From: Nanobdellati archaeon
GTDB lineage: Archaea > Nanobdellota > Nanobdellia > Woesearchaeales > GCA-2686295
DNA: 41,552 bases
Assembly (NCBI GenBank): GCA_014384375.1
Contig: JACNFY010000018.1
Location: forward strand, 1 to 41,552
Direction of reading: 5' to 3'
A model generated the notes under the pieces. The model made no database searches and had not been told where the DNA came from. It saw nothing but the letters and a program-made list of their open reading frames with translations. The position numbers and the translations under genes are program-made. This document shows positions 6,101 to 41,552 of the stretch, piece after piece. Within the stretch, counting starts at the first letter, position 1; the number at the start of each line of letters is the position of its first letter.

Positions 6101-7064
6101 GATAGGATTCTCATTGTTTGGAATCGTCACCTCAGGCGGTGATGAGGACACTACTACAGATGATGATGGTCCTGGAGGTGGTGGTCCTAGTGGCACTCCT
6201 ACAGCTAGTGTTGTCTCTTACACAAAGACGTGGACAACGATAACCTCTGGCGAGACCAAGACAGTGACGATTAATGAGGATACTTATGGTGGCGTTCCTT
6301 TCACAAGCTTGGAGTTTGATGCGCTTAACGACTTAACAAGCGCACAAGTACAGGTTAGAGCTCTTACAAGCGCTCCTTCAAGCACAGGAACCATAACCCA
6401 CAAGGCTTACAAGTACCTGCAGCTGGTTGAGACCAACATAGGAGATGACGACGTGGCTAATACAAAGATTGGTTTCAGGGTGCCTGTTGAGTGGTTGACT
6501 AACAATTCTGTCAGCAGGGAGAATGTGGCTTTGTTCAGGTATACCAGCGATGCGTGGGACGAGCAGGAAACAACCTTCCTGTATGAGAATAACACAAACG
6601 CCTACTACGAGGCAACCACGACTGGCTTCAGTTATTTTGCGATAGGTCAGAGAACAGAAGAGGTTGCGCCTCCTCCTGAAGAAGAGGAAGAGGAAGAAAA
6701 GGAAGAAGTCATTCCAACTGGTGAAGTAGTGGGTGAACCTGAACCTGAAGCTGAAGAGGAAGAAGAGGAAGAAGCAGGACCAGGATTCAGCAGGGCTTCG
6801 GTTATCTGGAGTATCATTGTCATAGTGGTGGTCATAATTGTGATGTACCTCTTTATGAAAGAGGGCAAGCTCCAGAAGATGTTGCATCCTAGCAAGTTAA
6901 AGGAGCATGGTGTTGACAGGCCTGGCGATCTTGGAAAGCTTGACAGCTTTGTCAGCAAGCACTTGGAAGCAGGTCATTCCAAGGAAGAGATTAAAAAATC
7001 TCTCTTGGATGCCGATTGGTCTGAGGACAAGGTTGATGCATCACTAGAGAAGTACGCTAAATAA
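57..7064 (+). CDS. Giant Cys/Trp-rich repeat surface protein with DUF11-like domain, DxDNDxD-type motifs, PGF-pre-PGF domain, TM helix and cytosolic helical tail; true N-terminus probably missing
   Basis: 2335-aa ORF; repeated C-x-W ... W-C-D ... G-C-W-D units; PGF-pre-PGF-like segment ending TTGFSYFAIGQ; acidic linker; hydrophobic segment VIWSIIVIVVVIIVMYLF; start is a TTG inside the terminal inverted repeat. Confidence 0.85.
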   Translation: MTTRCVDITDPTPCSQVGGCTWNGSACNATPSITGTCFNITASTNCAYNTSNVCEWDILPSVNLMIPSNDSINTTGNVTFYCNATDDYDLDNLSLAVWNSSGANYYFSTTPFSGMDDMANQSSWPLTNMPSDIYSWNCLASDDVDQTAWAAANYTLNVSTGGASTSMSVTKTLLSSSTPSIGETVRFQITITNTGGSTISEVWMHDDYENLDLSFDNVSSSCPIKSNENDGPNVNSIVINVTPCITGTFDSGNTTVVRLNFTALSAGVTTNTVEISFTEHGTNEDNDSASVNIQAGGGSNESASAINVTLISPSNGLMLSSNSFTLNFTVNTTSECMAYWDFNPEGIPPDYADVPTGWGPVVPDLTYIATGMSDHFFSAFAPNRNFTWNVRCNTTDYSWAAANWTFTVNGSMPECLELDMSTCDSTANCTWEDYDAMCLVDCMRFDYIDNETCESAFGGGICEWESFSNLCDPIGEFFEEGFEGFSFCFEYDGNKTGCDSFSEDCAWFSEPNCQSWDDCYDATEPGWCDPTNFNWGGDFSCWDYDGNQTGCNDASVTLAWPCEWHDDDWCNDPTWDCWDAINGTHGWCDMSFGGGVEGGCWDSFDQANCEAITGLPCTWQTGGGAGSGWCEDKGCWDYWDESSCTSAPAEEGCAWNSQYYYCYEEGCWDFINETNCITAGLNCSWTNDSYNPNGGWCDKDGCWDYDWTNVSDCENAFGGGKCRWNSPWCEEKGCWDFQSNSTCTDSSLNCEWMSDTWGWCEQQGCWYYDGTNESACVNATGLSCTWDAGSNLCFENFLECYEIDSMNDCFDTGWCFWDFAGNGGNGSCESPVFQPTDFFNPGCWGFSQAGEGACTNITTCAWNSSEGTCDDNGTANTGVQCGNISNSVMCNSIPMLSSCCSWNGSVCLDAPFTTSCWDNMQEPPEGGHFCDDYIATSNEAICNQIAGDPWYMPCEWNNQTAKCNFQFDDMFGGDAHGFGFDDVGSQSNCEAMGGVWIQEQWTDASGNVHWDNWCEMNFGFGSEICSDSCWACEFQDNGSAWSNNASARSACEESAAGCVFYQDSYAFNGFGWCDMNWGQQGNCDQNCWDCWEEDQCADSVTGCKWFTDQWNANMGWCDDKNIKTCDDECYNCWDQNNCGASDAGCTWDSDYWFCKPQGTGEGGESSEICFDGIDNDADTFVDCGDPECMFDSFCGGSDVFGSNCPSIPNNVTCLSEGCVWITDNWNNSWCDMNGSQCWLFDDNETACNLEGGCNYMNMSGFGSTTDSFCDINFTFVDSAQCWNYGQNASTCDSAPEDCVWVYDEWCQNNPSDSWCWDGNNTGWCDHVLWSCHNYDNNQTACNEQSQCGWITDWFNPAWGWCDPVCFSRNGTTCDNDVNISGTMTAGICLNISADNMGWCEPENMFKGCWDYGGDSGSCDGDDACTWIDDPFTGGFCGDKFMVDMVGDMDQSPPLVLETESCINGSNEYVDICGLGIKDMAENFGVGTAVYSMANTAICNDRFPEFNGTNMTTKYYWYFDTDGNQSGGCNATDNSSLVGFDLKFKYEALKQGDELVETKVSYKCLSGQWSPSKIKVSAWADKMCYMVIGGVISISKEDLTKLSVLGIYDETADMRIYATTANDSGSDSSVFDAIGPVWYSHGAADFRFEDCEGFVDMDGDGLEPSDDPDCVDFLKYGFIDIEKGWQCDDNIDNDGNNLVDCNDPGCMYDTFYCTASDYANDVSAPTITWLEVEEFSNGAFIGVDTDEPTNGTLLFYHTDPYCANISALNSSTILDWKLENAFDLDDFDLWHDFPVDQFIFDEKNISTNFITNTTYHYKLRLCDKSDNCALSACLNFTTSTEVSEYVVGFDLPPPADDVTEHLGNVFVHFDWEGTGDFNDTIDSGSGFMINDTQGRDVDLRFNNPNSTDKWGIDFIGVDFVKAQSLNITDAFIVNETAGGQTMVGMDSDKWSEIAQKLGVDQVKIEIPDGGNSENSSLMHCPDNATSLSDPACVEISLSDVNCTFNTTTTICWIPSSIGFSLFGIVTSGGDEDTTTDDDGPGGGGPSGTPTASVVSYTKTWTTITSGETKTVTINEDTYGGVPFTSLEFDALNDLTSAQVQVRALTSAPSSTGTITHKAYKYLQLVETNIGDDDVANTKIGFRVPVEWLTNNSVSRENVALFRYTSDAWDEQETTFLYENNTNAYYEATTTGFSYFAIGQRTEEVAPPPEEEEEEEKEEVIPTGEVVGEPEPEAEEEEEEEAGPGFSRASVIWSIIVIVVVIIVMYLFMKEGKLQKMLHPSKLKEHGVDRPGDLGKLDSFVSKHLEAGHSKEEIKKSLLDADWSEDKVDASLEKYAK

Positions 7065-7129
7065 TTTTTTTTTCTTAGTTCTCTTTTTTTTTCACAAAAT
7101 TTAAATAATAATCTCTTCTTGACAATTTT

Positions 7130-7432
7130 ATGAGGGTTGGTCTGTTGTTCTTGTCCTTGGTAATGCTGTTGTCAGCTTGCACTTCTCCTGAGGTTTCTCT
7201 AGAAGATAGGATTAAGGAATCCTTGATTGGTTATGAGTTGACATATTATACTATCGCTGGACTTCCTGAAACTTTTGTCATATCAGAATTCGATATAATC
7301 TCTATTGAGGAAGCAACCTATCAGAAGGAAGAGTTTTACAAGGTTAGAGTTGGTGAAGGCTTGTCATGGAATCTGTATCTTGACAAAGAAACATTTGAAG
7401 TGGTTCATACAGAACAATTATTTGTAACATGA
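7130..7432 (+). CDS. Small putative lipoprotein
   Basis: Signal peptide with lipobox-like LLSAC; TATA-like aatttaaataat about 25-30 nt upstream; ATGA overlap with next gene. Confidence 0.7.
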   Translation: MRVGLLFLSLVMLLSACTSPEVSLEDRIKESLIGYELTYYTIAGLPETFVISEFDIISIEEATYQKEEFYKVRVGEGLSWNLYLDKETFEVVHTEQLFVT

Positions 7433-10400
7433 AAAAGACAATATTTCTATTCTTGGTATTGTTGTTAGTAAGCGCGACGCTGGTTTCTGGAGAGGTGAGA
7501 GTGCTGAATGGAGAGAAAAGTTTTATTGTAAAAGAGAATAATAAGGAGAAATTATTGGAGAAATTAGATATTAAAAAAAATAAAATTGTTTTGCAGAAAG
7601 AACTTGTTGGTGATGACATAAAATATACTTTCTACAAGCAGAAACACAAGGGGTTGGAGGTTTATGGGAGCTGGGTCGGCTTTATAGAGAAGAAAGGGAG
7701 GATTGTTTCTGTAAAGTCTAACTATGAAGAGTTAGATATTGATACTGATCCTTTGATAACTGCGAAAGAAGCAAGCACGATAGTTTCTGATGATATCGGT
7801 GAAGATGTTAAGTCTGAACCCGAGCTGATAATCTACAAGAATCCTTTCAAAGGACCTGATTATCTATTGGCTTACAAGGTGAAAACCCCTTTTCTAGAGG
7901 ACAAAGTGGAGAAATGGCTTTACTTTGTGGATGCCAAGACAGGGAAGATAATCTTTAGGGAAACTTTATTGATATTCATCTCTGGCAATGTGACTGCACA
8001 GGTATTTCCTGAGACGCCTGCACAGTCTCAGATGATAGTTAATCTGACAAACAGTACTGTGACTGTCTGGCAGAACAGCAGCATGATAGCATCAGTTCTT
8101 ACTAATAACGGTTTTTACAATGTATCCAATGTCACCGGCAATATAACTATCAAGGCAAATCTCGAAGGTCCTTATGCAAGGATATTGAATGCTGACCAGT
8201 CAAGAGCTTATCACGAGTTCAACACAACTGGAAACTCAACACATAACTGGAACTGGAATGAATCTGACAGCTCTGACAGGGATGAGGAATCAAACGTGTT
8301 CTACCACATGAATATAATTCATGATTATTTCACATCAGGAGACCCTTTTAATATCACGCAGATGAATTTCCAGATGAACGCGACAGTGCAGTACGGAGGC
8401 GCTTCATGTAATGCGTTCTACGATACAGATTTGGATAGTCTGTCTTTCTATGGAGGTGCTGCTGGATGTGACAATCCTGCTCTGAGCGCAGATGTTGTTT
8501 ATCATGAATACACACACGCAGTGACTTCTCATATTTATGGCAATATTCCCTATTATAAGATAACAGGCGCTATGAGCGAGGCGTTTTCTGACTATTTCGC
8601 AGCGACGATAACAAATAATCCTGCGATTGGAGAGGATAACTGGAACTCACCTATCAGGAACCTGAGCAACACAAAGAGCTACTTGAACAGTTCTCACTAC
8701 CAGACATGCCCAGCAGGAGAAACACCAAACAGTGAAAATGACTACTGCTACATACATGACAACTCAGAAGTCCTTGGAGGAGCGTTATGGGATTTCAGGG
8801 AGCTGGTTGGCAATGAGACTGCAGACGCCCTTGTAATAAAGACTATAAAGGCACGGTCTCATTCTTTTTCAGAGTTCCTGGAAGATATGCTAGTAATAGA
8901 TGATGACAACGCAAACTTGTCAGACGGTACGCCGAACAGCACGTATATCTGCCAGGCATTTGCAAACCATGACATATACTCATATTACTGCAACCAGACA
9001 AAGCACTCGTTTACAATAGAAGAAGCCAGTGTTTCATGGTATAACGCTTCTAATAATGGTAGTATAATATCTGCTGCTGAGTCAACAGATGGTGTTCAGG
9101 GCTTAGGAGATGATGACATCACGAATCCTATCAATTTAAGTTTCGAATTCCCGTTCCACGGTCAGAAGTACACTCAAGTGTTTATAGGATCGAACGGTTT
9201 GGTGACGTTGCAGAACTATTCAGTGGATATCTTTAGGTATGACTGCTTCATTCCAGACAGCAACCTTCCAAACACAGTCATAGCGCCTTTATGCACAGAC
9301 CTCGACCCTTTTGCAGGTGGGGATGTTTATTACTGGTCACAATCTGACAAGTTCATAGTGGAGTGGAAGGATGTAGTGCTATACGGGAAGTCTGACCAAG
9401 AGAATTTTGAGGTGGTGCTTTTTGATAACGGAAAGATACTGATGCAGTACCTGAACACGACAAATATAACAACCGTGACAAAGGTAGGGGTTGAGGATGA
9501 GCTAGGTGTTGCTGCTGACATCCTGAACTTCTCTGATGTTAATTCATTGGCTCCATCTGCCTTCCTGTTTGTGCCGACAAACGACGCTCCGAACATAACA
9601 TCCTCCTATCCCAGCAGCACAAACATATCGATTGTCGAGCCGAACAACCAGACATTCAATATCAGCTATAGCGATTCGGAGAATGACTCTTTGACTGCAA
9701 GCTGGTATCTTGATGGAGTGTGGGTTGTGAATGGCTCTGAGTATAATTTCACAGGGAACTACACCAACAACGGAACTTACAACATAACTGTACAAGTTAG
9801 CGACTATCTGAACACGACTGTGAATACTTGGGTTCTTACTGTCAACAATACAGACACAATACCTGTAATTGACAGTTTCTCTCCTAATTTCTCAAATATC
9901 TCTGTCTATGAGAACTCAACACAGCTATTTAACCATACCTCAAGCGACGCGGATGGAGATGCTTTGAGCTATAGTTGGCTCTTGAACAGCTCTGAACAGG
10001 CCAATACCAGCTACTGGAGCTACAGCCCTAACTTCACAGCCTCTGGCAACTGGAATGTTACTTTGATTGTCTCCGATACCCAGAACAACACAGTTATCAA
10101 CTATTGGAACGTAACTGTTGTTAATCTCAACAGGGCGCCTGTGTGGAACTCTATAGAGAACCAGTCTATAACGACAAACCAGACAGTTAATTACACCTTG
10201 AATGCAAGCGATGCAGATGGTGACAACCTGACTTTCTGGGTGAACAACAGCGATGTGAACATAACAGGCAGCAATCTAACATATGAGCCTGGAAATTTCA
10301 CAGGAGAATTCACTATAACTATCGCAGCTCTTGATAACGAGACTAACACAACTGTCTTTATGACCATAACAGTCAATGACCCCCCTGTCCATAACGTCAC

Positions 10401-11430
10401 AATACCAAACCAGGCGTGGAACGAGGACTCTAGCAAGAACAACGCATTTGACCTTGATAACTACTTCTATGATAACCAGGACAACCTGAGTTACGGCTAT
10501 GTGAATAACAGCAACATCGTGATAAGCATATCAGCAGGGAACGTTGTCAGCTTTTCTCAGCCAAGCACGTGGTTTGGTTCTGAGATAGTGAGATTCTACG
10601 CTAATGACAGCTATATTGTGACTTATTCGAACTCTGTGAGCCTTACTGTGAACGAAGTCGAGGATGATGGCAATGGAGGTAGCAGTAGAAGCAGCGGCCC
10701 GGGAGTATCTCTTCCTCCATCATCTCTTGACACCGTATCAAGGACATGGGCTGTAGTCTCTGCAGGAACTGTGAAGACGCTTGTTGTTGAAAGCAAGGAG
10801 ATTCCTGTTACTGGCATAACCTTCGAGGCAAAGAACGATCTTTTGCAGGCCAAGATTAGCGTTAAGAAGCTCGATGATGAGCCAGAGACAGAGAAAAAGA
10901 TTTCAAAGTCCAAGAAAGTCTATAAGTATCTCCAGATAAGCAAGACTAATATTGAGAACAGGGACATAGAAGAAGCAACAATTAGCTTTGAGGTGGAGAA
11001 GGAATGGCTGAGAAACAGTTCCTTGGAGAGAGATGATGTTGCTCTATTTAGGTATGCTGCTGGCTGGGATGAGTTGCCTACTAATATTATGAGGGAGAAT
11101 CTTACGACTGTGTTCTATAACGCCACCACCCCTGGTTTCAGCTACTTTGCAATCGGAGAAAAGGAAAGAGAGGAAATAAGTGTTGTTCAAGAGAATGTAA
11201 CTGTGAATGAGAGTGCTGACTTAAACTTCTCAATCCCCTTTGAAGAGATAAACGAGTCAGAAGAAGAGACAAATATGACTTCTGAGGAGGTAATAAAGAA
11301 AAAGCCTTCAGAAATGCCACAGTCTCTGAAGTTTCTTATTGCGGTATTGATTCTGTATTTACTGCTTGGAAGACCAAAATTAAAGTGGAAGTTTCGAAAA
11401 AAGAAAGGTTCTCATAAGAAAGAAGATTGA
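7429..11430 (+). CDS. Secreted thermolysin-like (M4/M36-type) zinc metalloprotease with propeptide, Ig/cadherin-like repeats, PGF-pre-PGF domain and C-terminal TM
   Basis: Signal peptide; VVYHEYTHAVTSH (HExxH), GAMSEAFSDYFAA third zinc ligand motif, YIHDNSEVLGGALWDF; FTP/PepSY-like propeptide; PGF-pre-PGF (TTPGFSYFAIGE); TM then basic tail. Confidence 0.88.
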   Translation: MKKTIFLFLVLLLVSATLVSGEVRVLNGEKSFIVKENNKEKLLEKLDIKKNKIVLQKELVGDDIKYTFYKQKHKGLEVYGSWVGFIEKKGRIVSVKSNYEELDIDTDPLITAKEASTIVSDDIGEDVKSEPELIIYKNPFKGPDYLLAYKVKTPFLEDKVEKWLYFVDAKTGKIIFRETLLIFISGNVTAQVFPETPAQSQMIVNLTNSTVTVWQNSSMIASVLTNNGFYNVSNVTGNITIKANLEGPYARILNADQSRAYHEFNTTGNSTHNWNWNESDSSDRDEESNVFYHMNIIHDYFTSGDPFNITQMNFQMNATVQYGGASCNAFYDTDLDSLSFYGGAAGCDNPALSADVVYHEYTHAVTSHIYGNIPYYKITGAMSEAFSDYFAATITNNPAIGEDNWNSPIRNLSNTKSYLNSSHYQTCPAGETPNSENDYCYIHDNSEVLGGALWDFRELVGNETADALVIKTIKARSHSFSEFLEDMLVIDDDNANLSDGTPNSTYICQAFANHDIYSYYCNQTKHSFTIEEASVSWYNASNNGSIISAAESTDGVQGLGDDDITNPINLSFEFPFHGQKYTQVFIGSNGLVTLQNYSVDIFRYDCFIPDSNLPNTVIAPLCTDLDPFAGGDVYYWSQSDKFIVEWKDVVLYGKSDQENFEVVLFDNGKILMQYLNTTNITTVTKVGVEDELGVAADILNFSDVNSLAPSAFLFVPTNDAPNITSSYPSSTNISIVEPNNQTFNISYSDSENDSLTASWYLDGVWVVNGSEYNFTGNYTNNGTYNITVQVSDYLNTTVNTWVLTVNNTDTIPVIDSFSPNFSNISVYENSTQLFNHTSSDADGDALSYSWLLNSSEQANTSYWSYSPNFTASGNWNVTLIVSDTQNNTVINYWNVTVVNLNRAPVWNSIENQSITTNQTVNYTLNASDADGDNLTFWVNNSDVNITGSNLTYEPGNFTGEFTITIAALDNETNTTVFMTITVNDPPVHNVTIPNQAWNEDSSKNNAFDLDNYFYDNQDNLSYGYVNNSNIVISISAGNVVSFSQPSTWFGSEIVRFYANDSYIVTYSNSVSLTVNEVEDDGNGGSSRSSGPGVSLPPSSLDTVSRTWAVVSAGTVKTLVVESKEIPVTGITFEAKNDLLQAKISVKKLDDEPETEKKISKSKKVYKYLQISKTNIENRDIEEATISFEVEKEWLRNSSLERDDVALFRYAAGWDELPTNIMRENLTTVFYNATTPGFSYFAIGEKEREEISVVQENVTVNESADLNFSIPFEEINESEEETNMTSEEVIKKKPSEMPQSLKFLIAVLILYLLLGRPKLKWKFRKKKGSHKKED

Positions 11431-11441
11431 AGAGAACAGCT

Positions 11442-11822
11442 CTAATCAACTATTTTTTCTAATTCGGCTTGTTTTCTATAATTGATTGAGTCTTTTAGTG
11501 CGCTTTTGAATAATGCAATGCTGGTTCCTGCAGCACTTGACATCATACCAGAGCTGTAGACTGGGTTTTCAGTCGTCACTTCAGGATTAAATAATTTGTA
11601 ACCTAAAGGAACTGCCATCACGACTGCGCCAGCAGCCGCTTTAACAGCCGTTCTTGCTCTCAGACTCATTTTGTTCATGACTTTGTCAGCCAGAGGCATT
11701 AACTCATTAGTTATTATGTAAGAACCTGTTATTGCGAGATAAGACGCTGTTCTTGCAGGGTCATCTGCAATAGAATGATACAAGTCATTCACCAAATCCC
11801 ATAATGGTCTATCAGTGTTCAT
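11442..11822 (-). CDS. Hypothetical membrane-associated protein
   Basis: 126-aa ORF, hydrophobic AAAGAVVMAVPLGY segment; TATA-like stretch upstream. Confidence 0.5.
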   Translation of the reverse strand: MNTDRPLWDLVNDLYHSIADDPARTASYLAITGSYIITNELMPLADKVMNKMSLRARTAVKAAAGAVVMAVPLGYKLFNPEVTTENPVYSSGMMSSAAGTSIALFKSALKDSINYRKQAELEKIVD

Positions 11823-11921
11823 TTTATAATAGGTTTATTTAATCATATATAAATTTTTCTATTGTCATCATCTTGTAGTGGTGAAGAGATTAAAAACTCT
11901 GCTGCAAAGCTTTTGAAGAAA

Positions 11922-13253
11922 TTAGGTTCTTGGTATATTTATTTTCTGTCTTGGGAGTATTTTGTTATAATCTCTTATCTCCGGGTTTAATTCTTGTATG
12001 TCTTTGAAGCTTACTCTGTATTTTCTTTTTATCTTTAAGATGTGTTCTCCTCTTGCAACTTTGTGTTTGTGGGCTTTTTTTATTCTTTCTGTGAATAATG
12101 GTTTTTCTTCATATGCAAAGTTGTATTTCTCAGCGTTGTCTAATATTTGTTTTCTGCTGAATATCCTTACCACGTAATCCCTTGTCTCTTGTGGTATGTG
12201 CCACTTTATGTTTTCCCATTTTGTTCCGTATCTTTCTATTAGTTTGTGTGTTCTTCCTGCACCCCAGTTATATGCGATTGTCGCTAGTAGTTCGCTTCCG
12301 AATTCTCTTTTTAGGGCTGCTAGGTATTTCGCTCCTTCTATGATTGATGATGGGTGGTATCTGTAGTCTACCACATTGTTTATTGTGATACCTCTTTCTC
12401 TAGCTGTTGAGTATGTGAATTGTGCAATTCCTTCTGCTCCTGCTTTTGATTTTGCTCTTAAGTCTCCGTTTGATTCTGAGCCGAATACGCTCATCAAGTA
12501 GTTTTTTGTTAGCCCTGTTAGCGTTGCTTTATTCAGATAGTCGTCGTATTGGCTAATGTTTGAGAAGTGTCTTTCGATATTTACACGTATCGCTGGTTTT
12601 AGTAATATTTCAACATTTCTTTCTATATCTATTTCTAGTAAGCTTTTTTTAGTTATTGTCTTATCTGTTTCTGCATGTTTTGTTTGTTCTATTGTTGTTG
12701 GTTTTACGTCTTTCACTATGTTTTCTAATCTTGGCTTTGTTTCTTTGTATGTGTTCTCTATATCTGCAGATGTTATTTCTGGCGCTTCTGTGAAGTTTAG
12801 TGAGAATAATGCTGCAATTGCTGGTATTCCTAAATAGTTCCAATAGCTTTTTCTGCTTGGTGTTTCGTTGTCTTCTATTCTTTCTTTGGCTCTTTTGTGT
12901 AGTTTTTTGAATTCATTCCTGAAGTGATAAGTTGCTGTTGCTGCTACTGAGGATCCTAGGCCTATTAGGACAGCTTCTTTTGTTGATAATTCTTGGAAGT
13001 TTTTTATTAGGTATTCTAGTGATTTGTATATTATCGCTGCTTCTATTCCAGCTAGCATTAGGGGGTCTAATATCTTGTCAACTTTGTTTTTCCAGGAAGT
13101 CCTATATCGAACGTCGAGCTTGCGTAATGATTTCTTTAATTTCTTTCTAAAAACGCGTTTTTGCCTTGTCGGATAGTAAACTAGTTCCGTGCTGCCGTCT
13201 CGGTTTACTTCTAATAGCCAACCTTCCATAATTGTTGTTTTCTCATTAATCAT
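11922..13253 (-). CDS. SLT-type lytic transglycosylase-like protein with C-terminal LysM domain and internal TM
   Basis: GSESNGDLRAKSKAGAEGIAQFTYSTARERGI...AALKREFGSELLATIAYNWGAG (SLT motifs ES, GxxQ, AYNxG); HKVARGEHILKIKRKYRVSFKDIQELNPEI...LPRQKINIP (LysM). Confidence 0.85.
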   Translation of the reverse strand: MINEKTTIMEGWLLEVNRDGSTELVYYPTRQKRVFRKKLKKSLRKLDVRYRTSWKNKVDKILDPLMLAGIEAAIIYKSLEYLIKNFQELSTKEAVLIGLGSSVAATATYHFRNEFKKLHKRAKERIEDNETPSRKSYWNYLGIPAIAALFSLNFTEAPEITSADIENTYKETKPRLENIVKDVKPTTIEQTKHAETDKTITKKSLLEIDIERNVEILLKPAIRVNIERHFSNISQYDDYLNKATLTGLTKNYLMSVFGSESNGDLRAKSKAGAEGIAQFTYSTARERGITINNVVDYRYHPSSIIEGAKYLAALKREFGSELLATIAYNWGAGRTHKLIERYGTKWENIKWHIPQETRDYVVRIFSRKQILDNAEKYNFAYEEKPLFTERIKKAHKHKVARGEHILKIKRKYRVSFKDIQELNPEIRDYNKILPRQKINIPRT

Positions 13254-29535: not shown

Positions 29536-29961
29536 TTAGTTTTCCAATAATCTTTTTAGCAACTCAATTATGTGTTCGAATTCTAACCTGTTACTTTGTA
29601 TGTATTCTTTTTTCACGAAGACTCCATCGTATGAAACCCTGTTTCTTACATCTTTTAGTTGATGTATTATATTTGTTTCGTATTCGTAGTTTGGGAATTC
29701 TTTTTTGAAGAAGGAGATTAGGCATTCGTGGTTGTCAGATTTTAATCCGTTTTTTAGCAGTATTGCTGTTAGTAGTTCTTTTATCACTTCATAATAATCT
29801 GTCGCTATTATTGACGCTGTTTCTTCATCTAGTTTGATGTTTTTTAAGACTTTTAGTCTTATATCGCACATCTTTATTATTGATCTGATTTTTTCTTTGT
29901 CTGGTTTTATTTTTTTGATGTGTTCTTCTTGACATTCTCTCCAGTTCATTATTTCTTTCAT
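29536..29961 (-). CDS. HEPN-domain-like protein (partner of MNT protein)
   Basis: All-helical 141 aa with QLKDVRNRVSYDG; ATGA overlap with upstream MNT gene. Confidence 0.65.
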   Translation of the reverse strand: MKEIMNWRECQEEHIKKIKPDKEKIRSIIKMCDIRLKVLKNIKLDEETASIIATDYYEVIKELLTAILLKNGLKSDNHECLISFFKKEFPNYEYETNIIHQLKDVRNRVSYDGVFVKKEYIQSNRLEFEHIIELLKRLLEN

Positions 29962-30464
29962 CGTATCTTTAGGAATCCTCTTAGTTTTATTCCGTTTATG
30001 ATGTTGTTTAACAGTTCTGGTGATAGGTTTTTTGGGTTTTCTTCGAATAAGATGTTTATTTTATGTTTTAGGTGTTTTTCGAATTTTTTCAGGTCTATTT
30101 TTGTTTCTTTTGCTTGTATGAATAGGTCTATGTCGCTGTTTTGGTTGTGTTCTGCTTTTGCGAATGAACCAAAGAGGATTATGCATTTAGGGGTTGTTTG
30201 TGCTTCTAAGTGGTCTAATAGTTTTGATTGTATTATCTTTTTTAGAAATGCTTGTCTTTTGTAGAACCTGTAAAGTTCGCTTGTTTCATTTGCTTTGAAA
30301 CTTGTGAAGGTACCTTTTTTCTGTTTTATTACAATTTCTTTTTTGAGTAAGTCGTTTATATGGTAACTCACGGTTGTTTTTGGAATATTTAGTATTCTTG
30401 ATAGTTCTCTTATGTGGAAGTTTCTTGTTGGTTGTTCGAAAAACATGTTTAAGATTTGTCCCAT
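29958..30464 (-). CDS. Winged-helix + minimal nucleotidyltransferase (MNT) protein
   Basis: FHIRELSRILNIPKTTVSYHINDL wHTH; ILFGSFAKAEHNQNSDIDLFI matches GSx10DxD. Confidence 0.85.
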   Translation of the reverse strand: MGQILNMFFEQPTRNFHIRELSRILNIPKTTVSYHINDLLKKEIVIKQKKGTFTSFKANETSELYRFYKRQAFLKKIIQSKLLDHLEAQTTPKCIILFGSFAKAEHNQNSDIDLFIQAKETKIDLKKFEKHLKHKINILFEENPKNLSPELLNNIINGIKLRGFLKIR

Positions 30465-33331: not shown

Positions 33332-34012
33332 TTAGTCTGATTTTCCTAAATAAAGGATTGCTTTTTTATGTTTTTCAAAAACTGTTGGTTCTATGTATCC
33401 GTATACTCCTTGCAGATTATCTTTGAATTTCTTTGATAGGACTTTCTTTTTTATTATAGACATTCTATTTTCAAAATTATGTCTAGAGGAAATTTCTTTT
33501 TTTATCCATTCTTTATCCTTTGCTTTCGGCATCAGCATGAAAACATCTCTTATATCTGTGTTTCTGCAGCTAATAGATTTCATTACAATCAGAGCGTCTA
33601 TATTTATTATATTGAGTTTTAATTTTTCAGTTATTGTCTTTCCTTTGAGGGTTTTAACAGAGGAATTTTCTGAGATCCAATCCGCTGTGAAAGTGGTGTT
33701 TGTTTGTCTGTCCAATACTTCTCTGATGAGTATGTCCGTGCTGACCTTGAATCCTTTCTGGATCTTCTTTTCATATCGCATGAATTCTCCTTTGTAAGGG
33801 GTGTTTATCTTGTCTGCTTCTGTTACTTTGTATCCCTGTTCTTTCAATGATTTGTGGAATGCTTTGTTTTTTTCAGTTATAACTATGTCGCAGTCAACAG
33901 AAAACCTTGGTAGTGTGTAAGCGTTTACTGCATATCCCCCTATGATTACGAAGTTAAACTTTTTGATGTTCTTCAGTGTTTTGAATATCTCTTCTTCTCT
34001 AAGCTGCAGCAT
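33332..34012 (-). CDS. AbiEii-like nucleotidyltransferase toxin
   Basis: NFVIIGGYAVNAYTLPRFSVDCDIVI NTase motif; paired with wHTH gene, 14-nt overlap. Confidence 0.72.
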   Translation of the reverse strand: MLQLREEEIFKTLKNIKKFNFVIIGGYAVNAYTLPRFSVDCDIVITEKNKAFHKSLKEQGYKVTEADKINTPYKGEFMRYEKKIQKGFKVSTDILIREVLDRQTNTTFTADWISENSSVKTLKGKTITEKLKLNIINIDALIVMKSISCRNTDIRDVFMLMPKAKDKEWIKKEISSRHNFENRMSIIKKKVLSKKFKDNLQGVYGYIEPTVFEKHKKAILYLGKSD

Positions 34013-34592
34013 ATTTATCCCTCATATATTTATAGGCGTATGAATACATCTCATTATCTTCTGCAATCTTTAAAGTTTTCTTTAAAGTTTCTGTTCTGAA
34101 ACCATCTTTTTTTTCAGATGTTATTCTTTCTACAGGTATTAATATGATGTATTCTCCTATTGTTGATCCTTTGTTTACGTAGTTTGGGATGTTGTTCTTG
34201 TTAAATAATTCTTTCCAGTATTTTATGTCTTTTTTTAATATCTTTATGAAGTAAGGGGATCTTTCTATTCCTCTCTGGATATATACGTAATCAGACCATA
34301 TCTCTATTGCTGACATGTTTGTGAAAGCGTAAGGTTTCTTTGCTTGTTTTATTATTTCAGGAACTCTGAAGTCCAATAAACCTTTTATTATCTTTTCAGG
34401 GGAGTTGCACTTGTAAGAGTTTCTTGTTTCTTTTCTTATCCAGCCAGCTCTCAACAACAAGGCGAATATTTTCTTTTTCATACTCTGGCTCATACTCCAC
34501 TCTAACTCGCTCTGTTTAAAGCTTTCTTCTGTGCCGTGCCTTGAAAAAAACAAGGCGTAAGCCCTTAAACCATATTGAGGAATTTCTAACAT
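33999..34592 (-). CDS. AbiEi-like winged-helix antitoxin
   Basis: N-terminal HTH followed by YAFTNMSAIEIWSDYVYIQRGIERSPYFIKI; operon with NTase. Confidence 0.6.
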   Translation of the reverse strand: MLEIPQYGLRAYALFFSRHGTEESFKQSELEWSMSQSMKKKIFALLLRAGWIRKETRNSYKCNSPEKIIKGLLDFRVPEIIKQAKKPYAFTNMSAIEIWSDYVYIQRGIERSPYFIKILKKDIKYWKELFNKNNIPNYVNKGSTIGEYIILIPVERITSEKKDGFRTETLKKTLKIAEDNEMYSYAYKYMRDKYAAA

Positions 34593-34950: not shown

Positions 34951-35052
34951 AGGGTTAGTTATGAAGAATTATAGAGGAATAGATGTTGATGTTCTGAAAA
35001 GTGAAAATATTTATAAAGTTGTGTATATGTTTCTAAGAAATGGGGGTAAATA

Positions 35053-37197
35053 ATGAGCCTAAAAGATTTGAGTCTTAAAGGGCTGTACGACTCCGATAAA
35101 GATGATCTTCTAAATGATTTTTATATTCCTGTTTTATCTGAGTCTATAATATATAAACGAGTAGCAGGTTTTTTCTCTTCAAATGCCTTAGCAATAGCTG
35201 CAAAAGGTATTGTTAAGTTTATTGAGAATGGAGGGACAATTCAATTAATTGCTAACGTGATATTATCAGAAAAAGACCAAGAAGAAATAAAAAAAGCTAT
35301 TAAAGAGAAAGAGTCCGAGATAATAAATGAAATAGAGAATCTAGAAGATACTTTAAAGAAAGGACAAATAAGTTTACTTGGTTGGATGATAAAAAATGAC
35401 AAATTAGAGATAAAAATTGCAGTTGTTCAAAAAGGTATTGAACATAAAAAGAAAGGTGTTTTGGAGGATAAAGAAGGTAACAAGATTTCTTTCAGTGGTT
35501 CCGATAATGAAACGTTAAAAGGTTGGATAGAAAATGATGAAGAATTTCATGTTTTTTGCAGTTGGAGAGAGGAAGAAGCTAATAGACATTTAAACCCTGA
35601 TATTAAAGGTTTTGATTATTTATGGAATGATGAGGCAAAAAAAGTAAAAGTCTATCCTGTATCAGAAGCATTTAGAAGAGGATTAGTAAAAACAGCCCCT
35701 AAAAATGATGAAAAATTTAAAGAATTATCAAAAGAAGTTACAGAAAAGTTACTCAAGAAAAATAAAGAAATTATTGAGAATAAAAAAGAGATCCAAGAAG
35801 TAGAAGAGAAGCAAAAAGAACAAACTGAAGAACTTATTCTTAGAGGCTATCAATCTCAAGCAGTTGATGATTGGTTCAAAAATAAGGAAAAAGGTTTTTT
35901 TAGGATGGCAACAGGTACAGGAAAAACTGAAACAGCAATAGGAGTGATTAAACAATTGCTTGAAAAAGATAAGTCTTTTTTTGTAATTATAGTTGTTCAT
36001 GGTCAGTCTTTGTTGAATCAATGGATAAACAAATTGAAAAAATACGGTTTTAGCAGTAGAGGAGCTTCTTCAACTTTCCCAAATTGGAGAAAAGAGTTTA
36101 GAAAAGAGGCTATGGGAGTCTCTTTGGGTTATGAAAAGCTTTCTATCTTTGTAACAACTTATCAAACCTTTTCTTCCGAAGATTTTGTGACAATTGTAAA
36201 AACACTTGAATGTAACACGCTACTAACTTGTGATGAAGTTCATCATGCAGGGGCACCAAAATTTAGAAAAGGTCTAATTAGAAATTATTTATACAGATTG
36301 GGTTTAAGTGCCACTCCTGAAAGATGGTTTGATGAAGAAGGTACATCCTTTCTTGAAAATTATTTTGGAAAAACGGCGTATTCGTTTTCTATGAAGCGAG
36401 CAATGAGTGAGATAAATCCAGCCACAAAAAAAACTTATTTGTGTCAATATAGGTACCATCCAATATTAGTTAATTTGACTATTGAAGAAAATGAAGAATT
36501 CATTGAACTTAGTAAAAAAATTGGTAGAAGGTATCATCTGCTTGGAGAATATGACAGGAAAGACTCTCAATTACTTAGACTTGCATTAAAACGCTCTGAC
36601 ATTAAAAAAAATGCTAGGTTAAAAATTCATGAATTAGAGAAACTTTTTGTGGAGTTAGGGGATTCTTTAGAATACTGTATAATTTATTGTACTGGAAAGC
36701 AAATGAATGATGTAAAGGACTTGCTACAGAAATATAATAGAATATATTGTGAGTTTACTCAGCATCAAAAACCTGCTGAGAGGGAGAAAATATTGAAGGA
36801 GTTTAAACTAGGAAGAGAAAAGGGAGGTTATAATGTAATATTAGCTATTGACTGTCTAAATGAAGGTATAGACATACCATCTGCAAAAATAGGAATATTT
36901 TTAGAAAATAGCTTAAATCCAATAGAATTTATTCAAAGAAGAGGTAGATTATTGAGACAGAGTAATAATAAAAAGGAAGCTATCATGTATGATTTTATTG
37001 TCGAACCTTCTTTTGAGGGCTTAGATGATAAAGACTATTGGGAAAAGGAAAGAAAAGAAATACAAAAAGAATTTGATCGCTTTATTGAATTTTCTCACCT
37101 TTCTTTGAATACACAAGAGTCACTAGAAAAAATGAAAAATATTATAAAGAAGTATAGCTTGGTTATAAGAGTAAGAGAAGAGAATGATGTTCTATGA
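35053..37197 (+). CDS. SF2 helicase with N-terminal PLD-like nuclease domain
   Basis: N-term EHKKKGVLEDKEGNKISFSGSDNET (PLD-like HxK...GSxN); helicase MATGTGKTETA, TCDEVHHAG, LGLSATPE, QRRGRLLRQ. Confidence 0.88.
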   Translation: MSLKDLSLKGLYDSDKDDLLNDFYIPVLSESIIYKRVAGFFSSNALAIAAKGIVKFIENGGTIQLIANVILSEKDQEEIKKAIKEKESEIINEIENLEDTLKKGQISLLGWMIKNDKLEIKIAVVQKGIEHKKKGVLEDKEGNKISFSGSDNETLKGWIENDEEFHVFCSWREEEANRHLNPDIKGFDYLWNDEAKKVKVYPVSEAFRRGLVKTAPKNDEKFKELSKEVTEKLLKKNKEIIENKKEIQEVEEKQKEQTEELILRGYQSQAVDDWFKNKEKGFFRMATGTGKTETAIGVIKQLLEKDKSFFVIIVVHGQSLLNQWINKLKKYGFSSRGASSTFPNWRKEFRKEAMGVSLGYEKLSIFVTTYQTFSSEDFVTIVKTLECNTLLTCDEVHHAGAPKFRKGLIRNYLYRLGLSATPERWFDEEGTSFLENYFGKTAYSFSMKRAMSEINPATKKTYLCQYRYHPILVNLTIEENEEFIELSKKIGRRYHLLGEYDRKDSQLLRLALKRSDIKKNARLKIHELEKLFVELGDSLEYCIIYCTGKQMNDVKDLLQKYNRIYCEFTQHQKPAEREKILKEFKLGREKGGYNVILAIDCLNEGIDIPSAKIGIFLENSLNPIEFIQRRGRLLRQSNNKKEAIMYDFIVEPSFEGLDDKDYWEKERKEIQKEFDRFIEFSHLSLNTQESLEKMKNIIKKYSLVIRVREENDVL

Positions 37198-37382
37198 TTG
37201 AAGAGTTTAAAATCAATGAAAGGATTAGGAAGAAAATAGAAAACTCACAAGTTGAAGAACCAATAAAAGAATTTCTTTTAAAAATTTTGGAGATTGAATT
37301 CAAGGAAGGTAAGTCTAGCCAATATTCACGCGTTTATAAAAAAGAAATAGATAATACATATATTTTACTCAAGAGGAATTGA
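37194..37382 (+). CDS. Small conserved-looking protein in helicase/SMC operon
   Basis: 62-aa ORF, ATGA overlap with helicase stop, immediately before the ATPase gene. Confidence 0.55.
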   Translation: MIEEFKINERIRKKIENSQVEEPIKEFLLKILEIEFKEGKSSQYSRVYKKEIDNTYILLKRN

Positions 37383-37383
37383 T

Positions 37384-39366
37384 ATGACTCGATTAATTAG
37401 TTTGAAGATGGTTAATTATAGGCCGTTTTATGGGAAAGATAATATTATCTCTTTTAGTACGAACCCTAAAAAACCTTTTAATATAGTCTTTGCGGGGACT
37501 GGAGGCGGAAAAACTACTATTTTAGATGCGATGGCCTGGTGCATGTATGGTAAAGAGATTCATAAGCCAGATCCCTACCCGATGTTAAATGATAGAAAGA
37601 GAGATGAATTAAAAAAAGGAGAGACTGCTGGTGTTCAAATTGAAATAATCATGGGAAAAAGTGAAAAGGAAATAGATTGTGTTTTATCAAGAACTGTTAC
37701 TTTCATTAAAGATGAGAGGGGTGTAAAGCCAATTGATGTTAGTGAACAAACTAAAGCAAAAGTTAAGGGACCACGCAACAATCTAATAGGGGCCAGCTTT
37801 GATGTTGTAGTAGATAGAATTTTTCCAGAAGATATACAACATCTGTTCATGTTCGATGGAGAAGCGTTACAAAAATTTTTTGATGAAGATAACATAGAAA
37901 ATACAAAAAATGCAATTATAGACATTACACAAATAGATTTTCTGAAGTCTACTATTAAACATTTAAAAGAGGTTAGTAAAAGCTACAAACAAGATGAAGA
38001 AGAGAACCCTAAAATCCAAGAGTATAAAACTTTAATAAGAAGTGTAGATAAAGAAATAGATCGTCATAACATAGAAAAGAAAAAAACACAAGAAAACCTA
38101 GATTCTGCTAAAAAAAACTACGCCTCCGCATTAGAAAAACTAAAAAAAATTGGTGCAGGTGATAAAGATATTAAAAAATTGATAGAAGAAGAAAAAAAAA
38201 TCTTAGAGAAACTAAAAGAAACTAAAAAAGAGTTAGATGATTTAGAGGAGGAAAGTTTCAAACACCTTTTAAATTCAGTTCCCACTCTTTTTTGTAAAAA
38301 AGAACTTAAAAAAGCAATAAAAATTATTGATGAACAATATGGTTCTGGAGAACTGCCACCAGACCCAATAAAAATTGATTTCTTGAATAAATTATTAAAT
38401 GAAAAAAAGGAGTGTATTTGTGGAACGCCTTTAAAAAAAGGTAGCAAAGAAAGAAAAAAAGTTGAAGAATATAGAGATAGAGCGCCTCTTTCAAAATACG
38501 AACCAGAAATAAGGCATGGACAAGGTGCAATGAAAGTAATTCTAAGTAAAACTTCAAATTTTTTAGATGAAAGGAAAAAATACTATGAAACAATTAAAAA
38601 AAAGACAGCCATCATTAATGATTTAAATAATCAACATAAATTAAAGAAAAAAGAAAGAAAAGGCTTGAATGAGCAAGAACTAAATTCTTTATCCTCTGAA
38701 AGAGATTTTCAATTTGCTGAAATAGAACGATATAATAAGCGAATAGGGGAACTAAACCACGAAATAGTTGACAACAATAAGCAAAAAACGCGTTGGGATG
38801 ATGAAAAAAGAAAATTAGAAAAGGAACAGATTAAGAATAAGGAGCAGAGAAAAAAGTTTGAAATTTGTGATATCGCAATAACTTTCTTTCAAAAAATAAA
38901 GGACGAACTCATAGTTGAAGTGAAAGATGAGATTGAGAAAAAAACAAACGAACTTTTTAAGAAAGGTGTAGATGAACCTAGAGTATCAGAAGTTCAAATA
39001 ACAGATGATTTTGAATGCCGAGTTTTAAACAAACGTGGTGAATCTATATACGGAGGTCTTTCCTCTGGACAGAAGGAAATTTTGGCTGTTTCGTTTATGA
39101 TTGCCTTACGTAAGGAATCTGGTTTTGATTCCCCGATATTATTTGATTATCCTTGGGGAAGAATAGACCCCGAAAAAACCGTGGAACTCATAAACTCTCT
39201 GAAAGAAGTCCTTAAAAATGTACAAGTTAACTTCTTTTTGATTCGAGGGAGAGAATTTACAGATTCAGTAAAGCATCACATGAAAGATTATACTGGGGCG
39301 TTGTACGAGATAAGAAAGGAAAAAAACAAGCCTGAAAGCAAGGTGAAAAAACATGAAAGAAAGTGA
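37384..39366 (+). CDS. SMC/Rad50/DndD-like AAA ATPase with coiled coil and partial zinc-hook-like CxC
   Basis: FAGTGGGKTTILDAMAWCMYG Walker A; FMFDGEAL; long coiled coil with ECICGTPL; YGGLSSGQKEILAVSF signature; SPILFDYPWGRID Walker B region. Confidence 0.85.
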   Translation: MTRLISLKMVNYRPFYGKDNIISFSTNPKKPFNIVFAGTGGGKTTILDAMAWCMYGKEIHKPDPYPMLNDRKRDELKKGETAGVQIEIIMGKSEKEIDCVLSRTVTFIKDERGVKPIDVSEQTKAKVKGPRNNLIGASFDVVVDRIFPEDIQHLFMFDGEALQKFFDEDNIENTKNAIIDITQIDFLKSTIKHLKEVSKSYKQDEEENPKIQEYKTLIRSVDKEIDRHNIEKKKTQENLDSAKKNYASALEKLKKIGAGDKDIKKLIEEEKKILEKLKETKKELDDLEEESFKHLLNSVPTLFCKKELKKAIKIIDEQYGSGELPPDPIKIDFLNKLLNEKKECICGTPLKKGSKERKKVEEYRDRAPLSKYEPEIRHGQGAMKVILSKTSNFLDERKKYYETIKKKTAIINDLNNQHKLKKKERKGLNEQELNSLSSERDFQFAEIERYNKRIGELNHEIVDNNKQKTRWDDEKRKLEKEQIKNKEQRKKFEICDIAITFFQKIKDELIVEVKDEIEKKTNELFKKGVDEPRVSEVQITDDFECRVLNKRGESIYGGLSSGQKEILAVSFMIALRKESGFDSPILFDYPWGRIDPEKTVELINSLKEVLKNVQVNFFLIRGREFTDSVKHHMKDYTGALYEIRKEKNKPESKVKKHERK

Positions 39367-39775
39367 GGCTCCTAGAGAATTAGCAATAGAAGAATCAAAA
39401 CATTCCTTTTATGAAGATTTAAAAGCAGGAAAAATTTTTCCTGAGTTAAAAGGATATGAAATGGCATATCTCTTCATTATTGCAATGGCATATGGAGTTT
39501 ATTTCAAAAGCTGGGAACCAATAAAAAACGCAAAACGTTCAATCTCCAGGTCTTTTATAGAAAAAGATTTTGAATGGTTAATTAAAGCAGTTGCAATTAC
39601 TTCCTCTAAAGAAAGGGTTAATATTATTCCAGACAAAGCAGAAATTTATAAGATCGCTGAAGAATATGCCAATGGAGGAATTGGAATAATAGAAAAGATT
39701 CTTAAAAAGAGTAAGCCTGGGGAATTTGAGACAACTATGGAGAAAGAATTGAGCAAAATTCAAAAGGAGAAATGA
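39353..39775 (+). CDS. Small protein resembling Dnd-system-associated small proteins (dnd_assoc_4-like pattern)
   Basis: ELKGYEMAYLFIIAMAYGVYFKSW...IAEEYANGGIGIIEKIL; 14-nt overlap with ATPase gene. Confidence 0.4.
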   Translation: MKESEAPRELAIEESKHSFYEDLKAGKIFPELKGYEMAYLFIIAMAYGVYFKSWEPIKNAKRSISRSFIEKDFEWLIKAVAITSSKERVNIIPDKAEIYKIAEEYANGGIGIIEKILKKSKPGEFETTMEKELSKIQKEK

Positions 39776-40191
39776 CATGGGGAACATACTATCTTATCAA
39801 ACATTCTTCAAAAAAAGAAGATCCAGAATTTGGCCAGAGACAAGAACATATTCATTTTAAAATCCATTTAGATAATCAAAAAACATTGACTTCTTATGTT
39901 TTGCCTCAGAAAAAGTTTGATCCTAAAAAGAAAACTAATCTCATTTATATGGGCAGATTTGATGTTGATTCTGCTTTAAGCTATGGGAAAATAATAGAAA
40001 AAGGAATCATAGATAAAATAGGTCCACACCAATTTACTATCAGTGATAAGTTTATTATTAGCATATATCAACCTCCAAAGATGAAAGAACAAAAAAGTAA
40101 GATGTTTTTTGTTTCTTATAAACCTCTAGAAAGACCTAAAAGATGGTGGGAAAAATATAAAAAAATAGCAGAGTTATCTAAGAGAGGTTAA
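39772..40191 (+). CDS. Unknown 139-aa protein, last gene of helicase/SMC operon
   Basis: ATGA overlap with the preceding gene. Confidence 0.55.
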   Translation: MTWGTYYLIKHSSKKEDPEFGQRQEHIHFKIHLDNQKTLTSYVLPQKKFDPKKKTNLIYMGRFDVDSALSYGKIIEKGIIDKIGPHQFTISDKFIISIYQPPKMKEQKSKMFFVSYKPLERPKRWWEKYKKIAELSKRG

Positions 40192-40199
40192 TATTTCTT

Positions 40200-41432
40200 T
40201 TAATTCTGAAATTTAAGTTTGAATAAATTTTCAAGAACTTTTTTTACTACTTTCATATAATCTTCAATTTGATGATCTGTTATGCCTCCTGTAGCACGTC
40301 TATGGATAAGATCACAACGAAGTTTATAATAGTAAGCTATTTTTTTCCAGAGAGTTTTTGTTAACTTTATATACTTTTTAACTTCTTTATGTACATCTAT
40401 TCGATTCTCAAAAAGATTATTTATGCTTTGTTGACTGTATGTGATATTTGAGTCGTTAACTAAGAATTCCTTAAAAGCAATTTCAAGCGTGCTATCTAGA
40501 ATAATAAGACCTATACGATTTTTTTGTTCTAGTTTTTTCTTTTTGAAGATTATATCAACAGCGACCACACCTTCGTATAATCCTATAGTCCAAGGTTTCT
40601 TTTCCGCTATTTTTTTATTCAAATCTCCCAAATCACTATATCTTGGTTTTGATTTTGGTAAAGGTGGGAGATATGATTTCTTTTCTGTTCGAAAATCATC
40701 AATTTTCACAGATTTTATTTTTCCTTCTGAGTACTTGAAAACTTTTTGTGGCCAATCACCACTTAATCTGCGTGAGAGAGATGCATAATCTTTGACAACT
40801 TTTACCAACCAGCTTCGAAAAGCTAAGAATACAGGGTGTTTTGTATCAACTTCGGATTTGCTACTGTTCCAAGGCATTGATTGAGATTCTCCTTTAAGAA
40901 ATACAAAAACCTTAACTAGAGAAATAGTATCATGAGGTTTGCCCGCTAATCCTGTAGTAAAACCGACAGTATAACTTTTTAGTGCTCTCGAAATCAAACG
41001 ATCATTACAATAAAAATAAACCCCGTATTCTCCTCCTGCAGGATTTAATTTGCTAATGGGTCGAGATAATCCAGCAATAACTTCAACTTCAACAGGATTA
41101 AAATCTGGAGTGATTATTCTTCCATGATATCTATGAGGAAGAAAATCTGGTGGATATGACCAGTTTTCAAAAGTTAGTGATTTCAAGTTTTCAAGACCGA
41201 GTTTAATAGTTAACAGTTTGGATTTTAAAAATTTTGCATATGTACTTTGAAGATGATTTTTAAGGATTGATAAGTTTTCATCTGTTATAGTTAATCTAAG
41301 CCTTTGTAATTGAATAATCGTAGAGTCTTCATCTATAGGATTAACTTCATAATATGGCAAAGACCAATTGTCTTGATCTTGAAGCCAGTCTTCATCAAAT
41401 TCTATTCTATAGGTTTTCTTTTTTTTATTTTT
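40200..41432 (-). CDS. C-terminal part of a GHKL/MORC-like ATPase (S5/transducer-like region) with C-terminal HEPN-like domain
   Basis: GEYGVYFYCNDRLISRAL...MPWNSSKSEVDTKHPVF resembles the GHKL transducer region; C-term KLRCDLIHRRATGG (Rx4H). Frame stays open to 41432 beyond the track start at 41360. Confidence 0.55.
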   Translation of the reverse strand, partial: KNKKKKTYRIEFDEDWLQDQDNWSLPYYEVNPIDEDSTIIQLQRLRLTITDENLSILKNHLQSTYAKFLKSKLLTIKLGLENLKSLTFENWSYPPDFLPHRYHGRIITPDFNPVEVEVIAGLSRPISKLNPAGGEYGVYFYCNDRLISRALKSYTVGFTTGLAGKPHDTISLVKVFVFLKGESQSMPWNSSKSEVDTKHPVFLAFRSWLVKVVKDYASLSRRLSGDWPQKVFKYSEGKIKSVKIDDFRTEKKSYLPPLPKSKPRYSDLGDLNKKIAEKKPWTIGLYEGVVAVDIIFKKKKLEQKNRIGLIILDSTLEIAFKEFLVNDSNITYSQQSINNLFENRIDVHKEVKKYIKLTKTLWKKIAYYYKLRCDLIHRRATGGITDHQIEDYMKVVKKVLENLFKLKFQN

Positions 41433-41453
41433 TTAAAAAATTTTAAATTTTTA

Positions 41454-41552
41454 ATCAAAGCAAAAAATTGCTCTTTTTGTTCCACGGCCAAAGTAACAAT
41501 TAATATCTTCTGTTGTTAATTTACTTGTTTGTCAAGGACTTATAGCAAAATA
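41454..41552 (-). pseudogene. N-terminal portion of the same GHKL ATPase, separated by two in-frame TAA codons; continues off the window
   Basis: Same reading frame gives QTSKLTTEDINCYFGRGTKRAIFCFD* then an A/T-only stretch with a second stop before KKKKTYRIEFDEDWL. Confidence 0.45.

Follow-up and report, generated by a model that had tools for sequence, protein, structure and literature searches.

The PbeABCD system is known from haloarchaea, where it was described in 2019 (PMC6459918); a 2024 reanalysis treats it under the name of "CxC ABC-ATPase-DndE" system (PMC10853773). Together with dndCDEA, pbeABCD lowers SNJ1 plaquing about 10^4-fold, and every pbe gene is required for full protection; deletion of pbeB, pbeC or pbeD abolishes protection and deletion of pbeA nearly does so (PMC6459918). 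It is disputed if Pbe cuts DNA: the haloarchaeal system inhibits viral DNA replication with no visible cleavage (PMC6459918), whereas cleavage of viral or self DNA was predicted in the reanalysis, since the conserved HKD nuclease implies it (PMC10853773). PbeB may be a negative regulator (PMC10853773). Modification genes are missing from the vicinity of 165 of 553 PbeAC pairs (PMC6459918).

The locus examined here is very probably a PbeABCD defence cassette, which probably arrived laterally in an island of low GC content within a small archaeal genome and is accompanied by one orphan accessory gene. The window (the whole stretch of DNA that was analysed) is an entire contig of 41552 bases, part of a 1.27 Mb assembly in 39 contigs with a completeness score of 95.5%. 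Proteasome- and exosome-like genes on other parts of the assembly indicate that the host is an archaeon. Five ORFs, all on the + strand, fill positions 35053-40191, and their adjoining ends overlap by 4-14 bases or leave a 1-base gap (Table 1). The order pbeA-pbeB-pbeC-pbeD with overlaps is that of a putative single transcription unit. All five ORFs were confirmed where an earlier note on this DNA had placed five tightly packed genes, and the TATA (35009-35017) and the GGGGG run that it reported are both present in the sequence, the latter immediately 5' of the pbeA ATG at 35053. Scans for sigma-70 promoters and for terminators gave no excess over shuffles.

Table 1. Features of the candidate Pbe operon, in window coordinates
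Feature	Position	Strand	Basis
TATA-like TTTATAAAG, archaeal promoter candidate	about 35009..35017	+	read directly in sequence
pbeA: HKD (PLD-type) nuclease fused to SF2 helicase, 714 aa	35053..37197	+	PADLOC, NCBIfam, motifs
pbeB: small fast-evolving protein, 62 aa	37194..37382	+	position between pbeA and pbeC; leave-window-out HMM
pbeC: CxC-hook coiled-coil ABC-ATPase related to DndD, 660 aa	37384..39366	+	PADLOC, NCBIfam, motifs
pbeD: DndE cognate (DNA phosphorothioation-associated protein 4 family), 140 aa	39353..39775	+	NCBIfam, leave-window-out HMM, motif
orf5: orphan 139-aa protein	39772..40191	+	start overlaps pbeD stop (ATGA)

The assignment of the two large genes is based on matches over the full length of the PADLOC models, with E values of 7.8e-208 for PbeA and 1.7e-82 for PbeC. 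The first gene also matches TIGR04095 dnd_restrict_1 in NCBIfam (1.8e-116, under the 600-bit cut-off), contains ResIII and Helicase_C domains, and carries an HKD motif (H131xK133...GSDN) that aligns with that of other PbeA proteins; the N-terminal PLD nuclease and SF2 helicase that had been read from the sequence earlier are therefore both found. Similarly, the third gene matches TIGR03185 DndD (2e-36, under cut-off) and has a CICG hook at residue 344 in its coiled-coil part as well as an LSSGQ signature, and family matches and motif thus agree with its previous description as a DndD/Rad50-like ATPase. The HKD and CxC motifs of the locus fit the published definition of CxC ABC-ATPase systems (PMC10853773). 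The fourth gene matches TIGR04062 dnd_assoc_4 (8.5e-6, under the 74-bit cut-off), and its EYANGGI motif, already likened to Dnd-associated small proteins in the earlier note, aligns with that of other PbeD proteins. The NCBIfam scores of these three genes are thus all below the curated cut-offs, and the same is true of the first and fourth genes of the nearest archaeal relative.

With HMMs made from ten other Pbe loci, the window being excluded, the first, third and fourth genes each rank first in the window (E values of 9e-215 for PbeA, 3e-114 for PbeC and 7.6e-27 for PbeD). PbeB is short and weakly conserved; among 296 ORFs of the window, the second gene is the top match to a PbeB HMM made without the window, with an E value of 6.4e-6 when six closer sequences are used and of 0.0027 when all ten loci are used. 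This 62-aa protein also matches KTSC, but the match is weak, falls under the cut-off and was discounted.

All ten other loci, which come from both archaea and bacteria, share the order A-B-C-D, and nine of them lie near dnd or DNA methyltransferase genes. Both gene order and gene sizes are shared by six loci from the same archaeal order, obtained from PbeA and PbeC searches of same-phylum and same-order genomes, and by haloarchaeal, Ruegeria and Lactiplantibacillus plasmids. Based on reading of translations, three of the archaeal loci (L018, L020 and L027) adjoin dnd modification genes, and the other three (L017, L019 and L028) have C5-methyltransferase-like genes nearby; methyltransferases are annotated downstream in the haloarchaeal plasmids (L044 and L048). 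On the Ruegeria plasmid pTHAF33_d (L045), the four-gene set lies downstream of dndC, dndD, dndE and a cysteine desulfurase, and its first and last genes are annotated as "DNA phosphorothioation system restriction enzyme" and "DNA phosphorothioation-associated protein 4", with a hypothetical protein second and an AAA family ATPase third. We did not find the CxC hook in the PbeC of L019 and L020.

Several other arrangements were seen among these relatives. In L017, L018, L019 and L027, the region upstream of pbeA contains a DUF1232-like (YkvA-like) gene, which is directly adjacent to pbeA in L017, L018 and L027; the assignment is a Pfam match in L018 and similarity of sequence in the other three. 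The window has no such gene. Neither DUF1232 nor YkvA is a term in the text of the 2024 reappraisal (PMC10853773), and the gene is possibly an unlisted recurrent component of Pbe. In L028 (7052-7963), PbeD has a C-terminal extension that resembles an AlbA-type domain, for a total of 303 aa, and in L027 pbeD is followed, after a 10-base gap, by a DUF262-like (GmrSD-type) gene of the same strand (6594-8420). The Lactiplantibacillus plasmid (L046) has two tandem Pbe cassettes (415-5222 and 7980-12787) with identical protein accessions.

The surroundings of the operon differ in composition from the rest of the contig. GC content is ~30% from about 29.5 kb to the contig end, compared to roughly 35-45% across the remainder, which suggests that the low-GC stretch is an acquired island. 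The setting had been called rich in TA and Abi genes, and family matches bear this out upstream of the operon, although several of the matches to TA-like genes are below curated cut-offs. The island holds an AbiEii-like nucleotidyltransferase, a polymerase-beta nucleotidyltransferase with a HEPN-like neighbour, and DUF2283 and DUF4258 proteins. Two TA-like pairs lie on the - strand: an HTH-nucleotidyltransferase with a HEPN-like partner (29536-30464), and the AbiEii-like nucleotidyltransferase, which overlaps an unassigned 197-aa gene (33332-34592). On the other side of the operon, also on the - strand, a 386-aa gene (40200-41552) encodes a C-terminal R-x4-H (HEPN-like) motif; close to the contig end, the reading frame ahead of its start contains stops and a GRGTK-like stretch, which suggests either that a GHKL-ATPase/HEPN gene has been broken or that the assembly is wrong there.

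By analogy, we infer that the locus would encode the same machine as haloarchaeal Pbe. The ABC-ATPase PbeC and the DndE-like DNA binder PbeD would scan DNA for a site and recognise it when it is unmodified; PbeA, with its helicase and HKD nuclease, would then be engaged, translocate on invading DNA and block replication by cutting or otherwise, while PbeB might couple or restrain the complex. Self DNA would normally be spared by phosphorothioation or methylation. The earlier proposal of a nucleolytic, Dnd-related antiviral machine that lacks the Dnd modification genes is in our judgement a good functional reading.

No DndC-type enzyme was found by family searches of this ~95%-complete genome, in which the best DndC match has an E value of 0.18, in line with the earlier view that the locus is not standard phosphorothioation. 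The PAPS_reduct matches in the genome include a CysD that neighbours CysN, as well as a 334-aa protein not matched by the DndC model, and the only strong DndD-like match in the assembly is PbeC itself. The DNA methyltransferases of the genome adjoin their own apparent restriction partners (a TdeIII-type enzyme in C25 and a PD-(D/E)XK protein in C27), so none is an evident partner of Pbe; the C18 DNA methyltransferase is an Eco57I-type fusion. A C5-methyltransferase match elsewhere in the genome proved to be PrmA/MTS-like rather than a DNA methyltransferase. Because the 95%-complete genome yielded no DndC-type enzyme, the cassette is, judged by gene content, solitary here, a state that is already known. 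No phosphorothioation genes were found, so the dependence on phosphorothioation that was shown for the studied system cannot apply to this locus in the form in which it was published. The contig breaks 1.36 kb downstream of the end of the operon, and this break could hide a partner.

Because no modification partner is linked to the cassette, four options have to be considered: a methyltransferase elsewhere in the genome might protect self sites, the partner might lie beyond the contig break, PbeB or orf5 might hold the cassette in check, or the cassette might be inactive. The last option corresponds to the view that the locus is a genomic leftover, a Pbe cassette that remains after its modification partner is gone. 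Its solitary state would fit such a remnant, inactivity is one reading of solitary PbeAC offered by Xiong et al. (PMC6459918), and the reading frame of the 386-aa neighbour is interrupted by stops ahead of its start, close to the contig end. However, none of the four pbe genes is truncated or interrupted, their catalytic motifs are intact and their overlaps are tight, and we consider the inactive remnant unlikely, although it is the most serious of the alternatives.

The fifth gene offers another answer, in which orf5 is an added working subunit of a functional Pbe variant (for self-recognition, as an inhibitor or as a reader of targets) that replaces the DNA modification partner. orf5 is probably a real gene, since its codon score is similar to that of its neighbours, a measure that is weak here, and 0 of 2000 shuffles gave an equally long open frame. 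It belongs to the same operon, with a start inside the pbeD stop and a Shine-Dalgarno-like AAGGAG before it, and the cassette that carries it has no linked modification genes. Moreover, the slot after pbeD takes other additions in relatives, namely the DUF262-like gene in L027 and the extra domain fused to PbeD in L028. Yet orf5 has no credible relative in the genomes and collections searched, nor in the ten other Pbe loci, even unrelated genes may share an operon, and the modification partner may be out of view beyond the contig end. A working five-gene variant is therefore improbable in our estimation, and we give slightly less credence still to the proposal that a five-component Pbe works without DNA modification, with orf5 instead telling self from non-self or controlling the PbeA nuclease.

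Searches of Pfam, NCBIfam, PADLOC and PDB returned no usable match for orf5, and an AlphaFold model made without an alignment has a mean pLDDT of 39.6. Three candidate relatives were rejected: the L009 match is antisense inside a DNA polymerase I gene, the G058 match sits among pilin-like genes, and the G262 match falls within a 213-aa protein that is unrelated and has a hydrophobic N-terminus. The two other small genes differ from orf5 in this respect; those of 62 and 140 aa recur with the helicase and ATPase genes in all ten other loci, and the co-conservation on which the earlier note had staked its case thus holds for them but not for the 139-aa gene.

The same note had proposed an undescribed defence system, one that a match of all five proteins to a single named operon would contradict. 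Four of the five genes match one experimentally tested cassette by PADLOC, NCBIfam, motifs, HMMs and order, which comes close to that outcome; only orf5 is unassigned, and the claim of novelty applies at most to orf5. A system unrelated to Pbe, for which one could cite the unassigned orf5 and the weak model scores of the small proteins, is refuted for the first four genes by their sequence, motifs and order, and is scarcely tenable for the locus as a whole. We keep to the reading of the locus as a known antiviral cassette, carried by an archaeon with a small genome. It provides a clean example for the question raised by Xiong et al., namely how self DNA is protected from Pbe that has no phosphorothioation partner, and orf5 is one specific candidate for the answer.

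Compared to other described systems, the locus resembles DndFGH, SspE and DISARM as Dnd-related or helicase-nuclease defence, but none of its five proteins is assigned by NCBIfam or PADLOC to DndF, DndG, DndH, SspE or full-length DISARM. It is like the solitary PbeAC loci (PMC6459918, Fig. 6) in that modification genes are missing nearby, although its 10-kb neighbourhood is incomplete on the side of the contig break. With the CxC ABC-ATPase-DndE systems (PMC10853773) it shares the CxC hook in PbeC, a DndE-like PbeD, an HKD-SF2 PbeA and the small protein, but no linked cytosine methyltransferase or MTaX1 gene was seen in the contig. Finally, it differs from the DndCDEA-PbeABCD system of Haloterrigena jeotgali A29 (PMC6459918) in the lack of an adjoining dndCDEA, in the lack of a DndC found in the genome and in the additional fifth gene. 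Nevertheless, the likeness to that system, drawn via the PADLOC models and the other loci, extends to all four proteins, including an AAA_23/ABC-ATPase that is the counterpart of PbeC here, to their order and to similar sizes, with a small protein of 66 aa and a PbeD of 152 aa in H. jeotgali A29 versus 62 aa and 140 aa at this locus.
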